A stretch of DNA of 64,000 nt, taken from positions 1 through 64,000 of IMG/VR virus record IMGVR_UViG_3300047548_001261. One strand, written 5' to 3'. Position numbers and translations under genes: made by a program. The notes below the pieces were generated by a model. That model was given only the letters and a program-made list of their open reading frames with translations. It made no database searches and was not told the DNA's origin. The stretch comes from a virus. Position 1 is the first letter of the stretch; each line of letters opens with the position of its first letter. This document shows positions 45,043 through 58,702 of this stretch, one piece after another.

Positions 45043-45266
45043 GGGGTGCTAGCCTCGTGTTGGTTGGTGTCTAAGCTGTTGTAAAGCCGTCGATCAACCG
45101 AGTAAGAAGCTGGCTTTAACCTACCCTCTTTTTCCTTGGAGTCTCGGACAGTCTCGGCACCGGCGTTACGGGCCTCGGTGTAACAGGCTTGCTCTATGGA
45201 CAGGCCTTTGAGTTTTGTACCATAACGGTTGTAGAAAGTTACTTGGTAGTTGCCCGTGGTAATCAT
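45039..45266 (-). CDS. Small hypothetical protein
   Basis: This 75-residue protein (NYQVTFYNRYGTKLKGLSIEQACYTEARNAGA...) looks like a strand-helix fold with a charged C-terminus. It shares 4-base overlaps with both neighbours, so it is expressed with the dUTPase fusion. Function unknown. Confidence 0.6.
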   Translation of the reverse strand: MITTGNYQVTFYNRYGTKLKGLSIEQACYTEARNAGAETVRDSKEKEGRLKPASYSVDRRLYNSLDTNQHEASTP

Positions 45267-46288
45267 TGTACAAAGTCCCCTGTAGAACCGAACCCATTAT
45301 CACCCCTTTCGGAGTCCTCCAGACTCGCCACCCGTTCATAAAAATCTAAATTAACAGGGATAGTTAGAAGTTGTGCTATTTTTTGACCGATATTTACCTC
45401 GTAAGCCTTATCTCCTAAGTTATATAGATGAACAAGAACCTCTCCCGTATATCCGCTATCAATACACCCGGCTCCGACCTCTATTTTATGCTTTACAGAT
45501 AACCCGCTTCTTGACCAAATTAGGCCGACGAAGCCATCTGGTACATTGATTTTTATCCCTGTCGAGATTATTTGACTACCTCCAGCCAGTATTGTTGTCT
45601 TGACGCAGGATAATATATCGAGACCCGCATCTAATCTGACATTTTTTGTTAACTGGGAACCAGTAGATTGCCCAGAATCCGCTAGCTTACCTTTTGCTGA
45701 CCTAGCAGCATTATGTAAAGCTGTGTGTTCTCCCCTCGTCATAACTTCCAAATTACTTAAGGAATTGTTTAACCTGTTTTCATCGACATGGTGGACGTCA
45801 AACTCTGGATTTAAATACCAACCCCCTTCTATTTCTTGCAGAAACCTGTATTGGTGTGTAGCCCTTAAGTAATGCTCCATAATCAACCTGTGTAGGCGTA
45901 TATCATCGTCGCAAGTCCTATAGGGGTGTGTGTAGTTTTTCACTAAAACGTACCCGTTAGGCCCTACACGAATACCAGACACCCAAGAAGAGTTTTCAGG
46001 GCCTTTTACTCCGAACTGGTGGTTAAGCTCTCCCACCATTCTTTTGCTACGAGCGACCTTACCACAATCATACGAGCAAGTTATGTCACCCGGATTTACA
46101 CGCTTAGCTAAGTGGCTTGGCTTTAAGTGGAAAGGTTTTGCACAAACCGAGCACTGTACGTTGTTAGTCGCCCTGAATCTCACGCCCATACACTCCTTAG
46201 AGCAGCAATGGTGTTTATTATTCTCCATACGCTGTCTGGACAACTCAAAAGGTTTTCCGCAGACTTCGCAGTCAACTATTACTTGCAT
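45263..46288 (-). CDS. HNH endonuclease-dUTPase fusion
   Basis: This 341-residue protein joins two enzymes in one frame. Residues 1-85 have two zinc-finger-like units (CEVCGKPF...CCSKEC, CSVCAKPF...CSYDC). Residues about 125-192 are an HNH nuclease (RLHRLIMEHYL, DVHHVDENRLNNSLSNLEV, GEHTALHN). Residues about 215-337 are a trimeric-type dUTPase with all five motifs: RLDAGLDIL, SRSGLS, GAGCIDSGYTGE (Asp277), GQKIAQ and RGDNGFGSTG. GGAGAGGAAAG precedes the ATG. The dUTPase keeps its catalytic residues; the HNH also looks intact. It probably arose when a homing gene inserted at the start of dut. Confidence 0.88.
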   Translation of the reverse strand: MQVIVDCEVCGKPFELSRQRMENNKHHCCSKECMGVRFRATNNVQCSVCAKPFHLKPSHLAKRVNPGDITCSYDCGKVARSKRMVGELNHQFGVKGPENSSWVSGIRVGPNGYVLVKNYTHPYRTCDDDIRLHRLIMEHYLRATHQYRFLQEIEGGWYLNPEFDVHHVDENRLNNSLSNLEVMTRGEHTALHNAARSAKGKLADSGQSTGSQLTKNVRLDAGLDILSCVKTTILAGGSQIISTGIKINVPDGFVGLIWSRSGLSVKHKIEVGAGCIDSGYTGEVLVHLYNLGDKAYEVNIGQKIAQLLTIPVNLDFYERVASLEDSERGDNGFGSTGDFVQ

Positions 46289-55778: not shown

Positions 55779-57186
55779 TGGAAAATATCTCCGTAGTTAA
55801 GTTATCCACAAAGGACGAGTTGTCCTTCATTATTTGTTTCAATTCTTTTGCTCTTGCCATAGCTTTCCCAAATAGGCGGGTACTTGATGTAAACGCAAAG
55901 CGGAATACCCATGCCACTACAGGGTGCTTCTGCCCTTGCCTTTGTACACGCCCTAAAGCTTGCTCAAAATCCCCTGGTGAGCCTGTGGGCTCGTAGAAAA
56001 TCATGTGGTGACAATTTTCCTGTAGATTAAAGCCCGCCCCGCCCGACCTGTAGTTCATGATCGCCATTGTGCAAGTATCGTCGTTCAAGAACTTGTCTAC
56101 GTTAGCCGGCACGTTGCTGCCTCCGTAAACTAAGGCAGGATTTCTGCCTTTGAATATTTGTGCAAGACTCTCTACGGTCTTCCGGTAATGGCAGAAAATA
56201 ACCACCTTACCTTCAATAGACCCGACGATCTGCTTCAGGTTATCTAAGGGTTCATTATCGATTTTTTCAAGAGTAAATGCCCCGATGTTGGTCACCAATT
56301 GCAGAGCCATCTGTCGCAAGGATTGCTGATTCCTTGCGACAATCAATTCCTCCCCGTATTCCAACATCCTTTCTAACAAAAGTTGCTGATACAGGTTCTG
56401 GTGGGCGTCATCCAGCAAGACATGGTGATCGATTATCGTGGGCGCTTCCAAGGATAATACATCTTCTTGCCGTCGGCGTACCGCTCTGTAATTCAGATTC
56501 TCACTTAGCAAATCAAGTTGTTTATACCCGGCAATCTGATCCTTCATGAACGGAATGTAGTCAACATGAATCCGGTCGAATTGCGCAAGGTCAACGTAGG
56601 CTTCTCGCTTTTTCAATCGGATGTGCCCATAAGCCGACCTCAGCTCTGTGGGGCAAGGCGTGGCTGTCATAGATAGTAAGTCCATGTCCTGCATGTAGAC
56701 CGCCCTATACATCTCTTGGAAAGCTTGGGAGCTAGCATTTGCCATCATGTGGGACTCGTCGGCGACGATCGATTTGTAGCGCCCGTGTTTCCTTATTTCC
56801 GCGCCGTGCTTCACAAATAGTTGGTAGGACATCATTAACACGTCTGCCCAAACTCCCCCTAACATCAACGCCTTACGCTTGGCAGGGTCTTTATCAAGTC
56901 TTGCACAAGTAAACTCGTGCCCAACAATTTGCTGCTCAAAATTCATCATATACTGAGTCAGCAAAGGAGGGGGCATGACGACTATAACCTTCTTGCCGGA
57001 GTAGAGTTTATCCATGATCCAAAGATAAGAGATTAGGGATTTACCTGTTCCAACATCCGAGAAATTATTCGACCGGCGCCAGTCCAGGTGCTTCTGTAAA
57101 TCCTCCCGTTGATAGGGTTTGGGTGTTAGGGTAACTTCCACCTCGTCGGGAATTTTAGGGTTAGATAGGATTTGATTAAGTCTCAT
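55744..57186 (-). CDS. SNF2-family helicase
   Basis: This 480-residue helicase has motif I SDVGTGKSL near 43-51, Ia VVMPPPLL, II VADESHMM near 143, III SMTATP, IV KVVIFCHYRKTV, V NYRSGGAGFNLQ and VI QALGRVQRQGQ. It is a short SNF2-type ATPase of the sort common in phage replication modules, probably remodelling DNA-protein complexes or forks. Its ATG overlaps the methyltransferase stop (ATGA). Confidence 0.92.
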   Translation of the reverse strand: MRLNQILSNPKIPDEVEVTLTPKPYQREDLQKHLDWRRSNNFSDVGTGKSLISYLWIMDKLYSGKKVIVVMPPPLLTQYMMNFEQQIVGHEFTCARLDKDPAKRKALMLGGVWADVLMMSYQLFVKHGAEIRKHGRYKSIVADESHMMANASSQAFQEMYRAVYMQDMDLLSMTATPCPTELRSAYGHIRLKKREAYVDLAQFDRIHVDYIPFMKDQIAGYKQLDLLSENLNYRAVRRRQEDVLSLEAPTIIDHHVLLDDAHQNLYQQLLLERMLEYGEELIVARNQQSLRQMALQLVTNIGAFTLEKIDNEPLDNLKQIVGSIEGKVVIFCHYRKTVESLAQIFKGRNPALVYGGSNVPANVDKFLNDDTCTMAIMNYRSGGAGFNLQENCHHMIFYEPTGSPGDFEQALGRVQRQGQKHPVVAWVFRFAFTSSTRLFGKAMARAKELKQIMKDNSSFVDNLTTEIFSNVPEIVSTQDD

Positions 57187-58379
57187 ACATTCATAAATGC
57201 TTTAATAAATTGCGCGGCCACTTGTGGGACTATGGCGTTGCCGTAACCCTTCAATCTCATAACCCGCGCTTCTTGCGTGTTTTCACAGTCAATTTCAAGT
57301 GCTTCTGTGTTTCTATCGTTGCTTGGCACCACTCGACGGGGAACCCCATCAACCAGCGGCTTAACGCCGGGTTTAATTGGCCTCCATTTGTCATCCCTGC
57401 AATAGAGCCATTCTGGATTAGTCCATTCTGTATTAATCCATTCGGATACAAGTGCGGGTGTACCTGCTCCCTTAAGTTCGCTGGAGATGTTCGCCCTGGC
57501 CTCTCTGCTGTAAATTGCCGACGCATCGCTTCCTGACCCCTCGCTGGGAGGTCGTCCATTGTGTTCGGTGTTGCCCATCCTGCTAATGTCGCCTGTTGGC
57601 TCAATGGAATCCCGGTATCCTGTGACCTCGGTAAACTCCCGCCCCTGCTGTGATCCTGCGCCATTGGGGTACACCGCCCCACTACATGAGCCACCCCCTC
57701 TAAATTGATCCCGTGATTCCCTGCCATTACTTGTGGCGAGTTGTGATTCGCCCCTCCCGTACCCGTTTTCGGTGTTGGATACCCTGCCAACTGTGCCGCT
57801 ACATCCAACGTATCCCTTGACAGCTTCCCGTTCCGTATCCTGCCACCCTGATAGCCGCCCCTGTGATCCCTTGTTGTTGCTGTCGGCCACCCAGTAAAGC
57901 CTTTGTCTGATATGGGGTGCGCCCGCGCCTGCTGCTGTAAGTACAATCGACCCGACGGCGTAGTTTTCCCGCTCCATTTCAAAGCATAAATCATCGAGCC
58001 AGCCGTGTTTGATGGCGGCAGGAACTTGTTCTCCAAAAATTGTTCTGAAATTGCATTGCTTAACAAGTTCGATAAAGTGCGGCAAGAGGTGTCGTTCATC
58101 GTCTTTTCCTTTCCCTGCTCCGGCAACACTAAAAGGTTGGCAGGGGAGGCTTGCGGTGCAGACTGGCTTATCGTCTGCCCAGCCCGCAAGTCTAAGGGCA
58201 TAAGACCATCCGCCAATGCCGGCAAAGAAGTGGTGCTGGGTGTACCTTCTGATGTCACTTGCCTCAACTTCTGTAATACTTCGCTCATCTACATCCCCGT
58301 CGGCAATCAAGCCGTTTTTAATTAATTGCCTAAGCCACGCTGCGGCTTTAGGGTCGTATTCATTGTAATAAGCGCTCAT
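57183..58379 (-). CDS. C5 cytosine DNA methyltransferase (overprinted gene)
   Basis: This 398-residue enzyme has motif I HHFFAGIGGWSYALRL (near 50), IV SLPCQPFSVAG (Cys about 80), VI-like GEQVPAAIKHG, VIII IRQRLYWVAD and X GYGNAIVPQVAAQFI. Between VIII and IX lies about 150 residues of poorly conserved, Gly/Ser/Asn-rich sequence with recurring segments (VADSNN, VSNTENG, LATSNG, MGNTEHNG). A second long gene (57257-58288) is encoded in another frame over this region. ATG 58379 overlaps the upstream stop. It is probably a self-protecting methylase; no endonuclease partner is seen. Confidence 0.88.
   Translation of the reverse strand: MSAYYNEYDPKAAAWLRQLIKNGLIADGDVDERSITEVEASDIRRYTQHHFFAGIGGWSYALRLAGWADDKPVCTASLPCQPFSVAGAGKGKDDERHLLPHFIELVKQCNFRTIFGEQVPAAIKHGWLDDLCFEMERENYAVGSIVLTAAGAGAPHIRQRLYWVADSNNKGSQGRLSGWQDTEREAVKGYVGCSGTVGRVSNTENGYGRGESQLATSNGRESRDQFRGGGSCSGAVYPNGAGSQQGREFTEVTGYRDSIEPTGDISRMGNTEHNGRPPSEGSGSDASAIYSREARANISSELKGAGTPALVSEWINTEWTNPEWLYCRDDKWRPIKPGVKPLVDGVPRRVVPSNDRNTEALEIDCENTQEARVMRLKGYGNAIVPQVAAQFIKAFMNV
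57257..58288 (-). CDS. Overlapping-frame protein with GWPT/GWAT repeats
   Basis: This 343-residue frame lies wholly inside the methyltransferase gene. Its ATG (58288) has GGGGATGTAG upstream. It reads as a coherent protein: an N-terminal Pro/Leu-rich region, GSMIYALKWSGKTTPSGRLYLQQQARA, then spaced repeats containing GWPTATTRD, GYPTPKTGTG and GWATPNTMD, ending LSRWLMGFPVEWCQ. Proteins of this pattern are found overlapping phage cytosine methylases elsewhere, which argues that both frames are translated. The function is unknown. Confidence 0.75.
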   Translation of the reverse strand: MSEVLQKLRQVTSEGTPSTTSLPALADGLMPLDLRAGQTISQSAPQASPANLLVLPEQGKEKTMNDTSCRTLSNLLSNAISEQFLENKFLPPSNTAGSMIYALKWSGKTTPSGRLYLQQQARAHPISDKGFTGWPTATTRDHRGGYQGGRIRNGKLSRDTLDVAAQLAGYPTPKTGTGGANHNSPQVMAGNHGINLEGVAHVVGRCTPMAQDHSRGGSLPRSQDTGIPLSQQATLAGWATPNTMDDLPARGQEAMRRQFTAERPGRTSPANLREQVHPHLYPNGLIQNGLIQNGSIAGMTNGGQLNPALSRWLMGFPVEWCQATIETQKHLKLTVKTRKKRGL

Positions 58380-58702
58380 CAATGCAAAACCCCTTTCTCC
58401 GGCCCTTCCATAACTGCCAACCTCGTCTGCACATACTTTAAAAATGCCTTCAATATAGGCTCACTCGGCTGGTCGTCAGCTTGTAAGGTTACCGCAGAAC
58501 ATTTCGGGCACGGGCAAGTTGGTACTAATCTGAACAATTGTGGCTTACCTTCTTCTAGCATACTGAAGGAAAACGCCGGCTGACCGCCAGCTAAACTATC
58601 GGCGATCTGTAACAGAAGGGTGATGTCGGCGACGTCTACCGGCTCTTGAAGCACGCTGGAGAAATGACCTGCTAAAAATTGTTTTTCTATTTTTGGGTTC
58701 AT
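58379..58702 (-). CDS. Hypothetical protein with CPCPKC motif
   Basis: This 107-residue protein has a helical N-terminus (VADITLLLQIADSLAGGQ) and TCPCPKCSAVTL, a possible metal site, near the middle. It shares ATGA with the methyltransferase start and overlaps its upstream neighbour by 4 bases, within one operon. Family not recognised. Confidence 0.65.
   Translation of the reverse strand: MNPKIEKQFLAGHFSSVLQEPVDVADITLLLQIADSLAGGQPAFSFSMLEEGKPQLFRLVPTCPCPKCSAVTLQADDQPSEPILKAFLKYVQTRLAVMEGPEKGVLH

Follow-up and report, generated by a model that had tools for sequence, protein, structure and literature searches.

In the methyltransferase M.EcoHK31I, the small polypeptide is encoded within the large gene in another frame, and both polypeptides are needed for activity. 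Multispecific phage C5 methyltransferases carry arrays of recognition units which, to our knowledge, lie on a single chain and in a single frame. According to the account given in PMC3404938, M.EcoHK31I (YGGCCR; Lee, Kam and Shaw, 1995) has a large subunit with motifs I-VIII and X, to which its predicted recognition domain has also been assigned, and a small polypeptide with motif IX. The same account describes the split C5 methyltransferase M.AquI (CYCGRG), the small subunit of which comprises motifs IX and X and half of the variable region (PMC3404938). Tandem target recognition domains have been described for multispecific phage C5 methyltransferases such as M.H2I (PMC8936443). The phage locus presented here shares features with each of these systems and is, judging from its sequence and that of its relatives, very probably a split C5 methyltransferase, in which a subunit alpha would provide the catalytic part and a disordered linker and a subunit beta, read from an overlapping frame, would provide target recognition.

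The locus lies in a window of 64,000 nucleotides, which constitutes positions 1 to 64,000 of the 81,895 bp virus record IMGVR_UViG_3300047548_001261. The alpha reading frame (57183-58382, minus strand; 399 residues, with a TTG start and an ATG at 58379) matches the C5-cytosine methyltransferase family PF00145 (E=4.7e-16, above the cutoff) and phrog_363 (E=2.8e-71). Encoded inside the alpha gene, in its +1 frame, is the beta reading frame (57257-58288, minus strand), which has 343 codons as an open frame, contains W-P-T-P units and a motif-IX-like segment, matches phrog_1008 (E=3.9e-26) and is conserved in relatives. Both frames are exactly as they had been reported in an earlier note on this DNA. 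The matched repeats that the note had described, of the GWPT/GWATP type in one frame and the VADSNN/VSNTEN/MGNTE type in the other, are real, but both come from a single DNA that is read twice, in different frames, and this coupling by itself is no proof. The genes near the methylase encode an SNF2-type helicase, a primase, a DNA polymerase, a ligase and a thymidylate synthase; none of the neighbours tested in the window was recognised as a restriction gene, and the methylase therefore looks like an orphan. Also within the window, a single open reading frame at 45263-46288 (minus strand) has an N-terminal match to HNH endonuclease families and a C-terminal match to dUTPase, and may be a fusion or an endonuclease insertion.

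Databases list close relatives of this enzyme as ordinary single-protein methylases. The families phrog_363 and phrog_1008 are kept separate, both being labelled 'DNA methyltransferase', and in phage K1ind1 both overlapping reading frames have been annotated. The name 'Mte8-like', used in records of K1 phages and in papers on them, is only a label. Within the open literature that was searched, no statement on a subunit relation between the two families was found, nor any published overlapping methylase pair or clade in phages; an earlier description may exist elsewhere.

Alpha carries motifs I-VIII and X, among them I, IV (the catalytic PCQ), VI (GEQV), VIII and X, a combination that places it among the C5-cytosine DNA methyltransferases of PF00145. 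The PCQ, the GEQV, an R..R and the G.A of motif X are invariant in alignment A4. Motif X itself, RLKGYGNAIVPQVAAQFI, is found at 57204-57257 (minus strand), again in the alpha frame and with alpha-type base changes. A motif-IX HMM gave no significant match in window alpha. The alpha profile matches M.HhaI up to motif VIII only, and the structure match spans ~170 columns. In the AlphaFold model, the catalytic part has pLDDT values mostly of 85-97, residues 171-317 are predicted to be disordered (pLDDT ~30), and the end of the chain bearing motif X is ordered again (83-95); a folded small (target recognition) domain is absent from the predicted structure of the alpha chain.

A counterpart of the missing motif is found in beta. 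The motif-IX HMM, which was trained on beta sequences alone, matches window beta with E=1.4e-16. It also matches, in frame, two single-chain methylases, namely gp4 of Gordonia phage Baddon (6.5e-10) and gp47 of Mycobacterium phage Graduation (6.3e-6), in which the matched segment lies shortly before motif X. The HMM does not match the motif IX of ordinary methylases (LTPREC..RLQGFP), and the identification thus rests on the bridge formed by these two enzymes and on position. By both, the beta segment LNPALSRWLMGFPVEW (57329-57376, minus strand; beta residues 305-320) is assigned to motif IX; its residues L305, P307, L313, M314 and G315 do not vary among 94 sequences. A comparison of the beta profile with solved structures returned no solved relative, and a fold search gave no significant match with a beta model that is itself poor (mean pLDDT 58.7).

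Upstream of this segment, beta carries an array of W-P-T-P units, of which one to eight occur in tandem across relatives, with a median of 42 residues. In the window, the first units of this type (WPTATTRDH.., YPTPKTG.., RCTPMAQDH..) occupy 57578-57889 (minus strand; beta residues ~134-237), where base changes show coding in the +1 frame. They are followed by a last unit, WATPNTMDDLP...NLREQVHPHLYPNGL, at 57434-57577 (minus strand; residues ~238-285), of a type common to distant methylases. A 15-bp tandem repeat of 2.7 copies at 57408-57447 reads as NGLIQNGLIQNGS in beta and as INTEWTNPEW in alpha. Between methylases that are less than 45% identical in their catalytic part, 787 pairs of units at least 60% identical were counted, 670 of them at different ordinal positions in the array, a distribution which indicates that units are shuffled between distant methylases. 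The recognition units of multispecific methylases undergo such exchange, and by analogy the W-P-T-P units would read DNA and form the target-recognition region of the enzyme.

The openness of the second frame exceeds what methylase coding would give. Two nulls with synonymously shuffled alpha codons were used, each in 20,000 trials, and neither ever gave a +1 run of 343 codons; the shuffle test flags 210 of 216 methylase loci. This test is fairly well calibrated, as 10% of 254 neighbour genes were flagged at a nominal 5% and their run was 0.30 against 0.29. Over the 216 relatives, the longest +1 run covers on average 0.85 of the gene compared with 0.37 in shuffles, and no excess over shuffles was found in the +2 frame. 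Within the variable region, as delimited by alpha landmarks, 2 stops were observed in the +1 frame versus 252 expected (151 loci), and alpha-frame stops given beta numbered 0 versus 544 expected (133 loci, selected for a long alpha), the loci within each set being mutually related and the counts therefore not independent events. Nearly all alpha frames in a survey based on the catalytic part only likewise extend to motif X. Alpha is thus kept readable through a region in which its amino acids are hardly selected. Long +1 runs are also present in ordinary phage C5 methylases with an in-frame motif IX, represented by L334 (1297-2160; 141 codons over the catalytic domain) and its relatives L339-L418, where the run exceeds that in shuffles (0.47 versus 0.19 of gene length in 73 sequences so closely related that it may be a single event). 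As such runs extend over the catalytic domain of ordinary Firmicute-type phage methylases, openness there is weak evidence when taken alone.

This tendency of the +1 frame to be poor in stops over the catalytic domain, ordinary phage methylases included, is one basis for explaining the second frame as no gene at all and as a side effect of base composition and of coding for the methylase; the other is that no beta-frame selection was found over the first ~65 of its 343 codons. Such an explanation is nevertheless extremely improbable, being contradicted by the base changes and by synonymous sites in the variable and motif-IX regions. In frame-neutral nucleotide alignments, changes in the catalytic region fall on alpha codon positions 1/2/3 in proportions of 27.7/21.5/50.8%, a pattern that identifies alpha as the coding frame there. 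In the variable region the corresponding values are 54.5/27.5/18.0%, alpha positions 1/2/3 being beta positions 3/1/2, so that changes peak on the third position of beta and the coding frame is beta. These alignments took the place of codon-position counts on unit pairs picked by beta similarity, which carried a selection bias. Comparisons restricted to the window give the same pattern. Along the window gene, changes are of alpha type over alpha residues 1-100, mixed at ~101-180, of beta type at ~181-320 and, after a mixed block, at motif IX (341-360), then of alpha type again from residue 361, at motif X. Identity at fourfold sites follows a similar course, from 0.546 in neighbour genes and 0.569 in alpha before beta to 0.742 in the catalytic overlap and 0.835 in the variable region, and at motif IX it reaches 0.949 among relatives and 0.885 in window pairs. 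The frame under selection thus switches along the gene, from alpha to both, then mainly to beta, and back to alpha at motif X. The earlier suggestion that the second frame is an overprinted gene under selection and linked to the methylase is borne out by these substitution patterns, by the over-conservation of fourfold sites in the overlap, the variable region and motif IX, and by conservation in relatives. The constraint exceeds that imposed by the methylase itself in the variable and motif-IX regions, where the beta frame has the coding signature.

Where beta would start is suggested by the same profile. The only ribosome site before the ATG at 58288 is GGGGAT, and a better one, AAGGA, lies 7 nt upstream of the ATG at 58099. 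The ribosome site that had been ascribed to the second frame is therefore weak at the start codon then chosen, which may be the wrong one, and stronger at the internal one. Selection on the +1 frame in the window appears only from ~58079, and its absence over the first ~65 codons suggests that beta may start near 58099, as a protein of ~280 residues (57257-58099, minus strand). This ATG roughly coincides with the end of disorder in the beta model, and an ATG at 58099 or one codon earlier is found with an AAGGA-like sequence in several, not all, close relatives. A general start at this conserved internal ATG (GAT|GA in DDERHL) was considered and rejected, as the feature is present in the window and several close relatives and is not enriched in the wider clade. 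With a ribosome site defined as five or more matching bases, ATG or GTG codons of the +1 frame preceded by such a site before motif VIII are more numerous than expected in two groups of relatives (63 versus 34.6 and 34 versus 18.7), +2-frame starts of this kind being rarer than expected. Group 2 shows a strong excess of starts located shortly upstream of PCQ (73 versus 28.6).

This excess of beta-frame start codons is consistent with translation of beta from its own start and argues against programmed +1 frameshifting near motif VIII, which would yield a single chain combining motifs I-VIII with target recognition and motif IX. Such a product would suit six loci (L079, L422, L423, L428, L430 and L432) in which the catalytic reading frame ends soon after motif VIII and the remainder, motif X included, is in the +1 frame. 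In the common arrangement, however, motif X returns to frame 0 and a second shift would be needed; the absence of alpha-frame stops implies that alpha is read through, and beta-frame selection begins upstream of motif VIII. Frameshifting is on balance unlikely, and two separately initiated subunits remain the preferred reading.

The arrangement is widespread. A tblastn search found beta in 179 phage records. In a survey of 160 viral loci gathered by catalytic N-terminal alignments only, 146 of the 150 untruncated loci have a motif-IX-like segment in a +1-frame reading frame; of the four exceptions, L110, L140 and L225 look frame-broken and L104 is a weakly scored +1 case. The first three, along with L222 and L456, were excluded as apparently frame-broken, perhaps through assembly error. 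Among 80 loci retrieved from bacterial genomes by means of beta, a simple pattern test assigns 65 to the +1 arrangement with alpha intact; these loci, mostly from Proteobacteria, are probably prophages. Of 77 untruncated ordinary phage methylases of Firmicute type, 70 have a motif IX of the conventional form, in frame 0. Altogether 424 distinct catalytic sequences were classed, in sets drawn mainly from around the clade of the window, and 286 of them appear to be of the two-subunit type.

In a related clade, one-frame enzymes occur alongside alpha/beta pairs and enzymes whose motifs IX and X both lie in the +1 frame; on its tree the arrangement label requires 6 changes, compared with 39 in shuffles. 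Among natural variants, motif IX, alone or together with X, is found in either frame. In two loci (L068, 1749-3020; L079, 1563-3236) the beta reading frame is intact and numerous stops interrupt the alpha frame past motif VIII, and in L079 the beta frame contains motif X as well. A single-chain enzyme (L437, 1801-2661) has motifs IX and X in frame 0 and an LFPTPRSAD-type unit in the +1 frame, and is a possible intermediate with the recognition unit alone overprinted. Two loci (L028, 1460-1985, and likewise L145) have an insertion of ~520 bp in the catalytic part after GEQVPGAIKSGW, open in both frames, which in the beta frame resembles a zinc-finger/HNH endonuclease.

These relatives bear on whether beta is instead an independent protein, for instance the anti-defence factor that the earlier note had considered possible, overlapping the methylase by chance and made together with it. 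Its own purifying selection and probable own start would fit such a protein. Yet its signature overlaps the methylase in the loci checked (L077 by reading), many of which were found through the methylase, so that free-standing copies could be missed; its motif-IX-like segment is absent from alpha and stands in frame in single-chain methylases, and in some relatives beta includes motif X. An independent beta is accordingly quite unlikely, and a separate anti-defence factor finds no support in the loci checked. With the motif missing from alpha and with shuffled recognition-like units, beta is better read as the second subunit, and probably is half of the methylase; any anti-restriction role would be exerted through methylation.

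In the split enzyme that we infer, alpha in frame 0 would supply the catalytic and cofactor-binding part with motifs I-VIII, followed by a stop-free disordered linker leading to motif X, and beta, starting inside the alpha gene, would add the W-P-T-P array and then motif IX, which alpha is without. Together the chains would form a single enzyme methylating the phage DNA, most likely allowing escape from host restriction. A broader proposition, which we hold at even odds, is that, throughout a large clade of C5 methyltransferases from phages and prophages, an exchangeable recognition array is kept in an overlapping +1 frame, where recombination of units would change specificity while alpha need merely stay free of stops. 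If so, one gene would have two frames selected in turn, for a catalytic enzyme and for an evolvable, possibly multispecific recognition subunit. Hundreds of the loci found, although annotated as one protein, appear to be two-subunit enzymes. If they are, the annotated protein expressed alone from recoded DNA would be inactive or aspecific, and predictions of specificity from the annotated 'variable region' would use the wrong frame. The modular array could allow a specificity code to be deciphered, and the study of overlapping genes in phages would gain a large comparative case of a selected coding frame switching within one gene.

Compared by motif content, the window pair is like M.EcoHK31I in separating motif IX, on one polypeptide, from motifs I-VIII and X on the other. 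It differs from that system in being phage-borne with no restriction gene recognised nearby, in the variable W-P-T-P array that beta carries besides motif IX, and in having its variable region coded in the beta frame, the predicted recognition domain of M.EcoHK31I being in the large subunit. Unlike in M.AquI, motif X remains on alpha, although the rare type represented by L079 and L422 is nearer to M.AquI in motif content. Tandem units in a phage methylase are shared with M.H2I-type enzymes, the recognition role of the beta units being the putative one argued above, but in this locus the array occupies a second frame overlapping the first. The actinophage-type single-chain methylases, including the Baddon and Graduation enzymes (L331 and L328) and the one-frame sequences among L419-L461, have a catalytic domain related to alpha and likewise a motif-IX-like xEWMMGxPxGW, which precedes motif X by a few tens of residues; unlike the window pair, they keep all conserved motifs in one frame.
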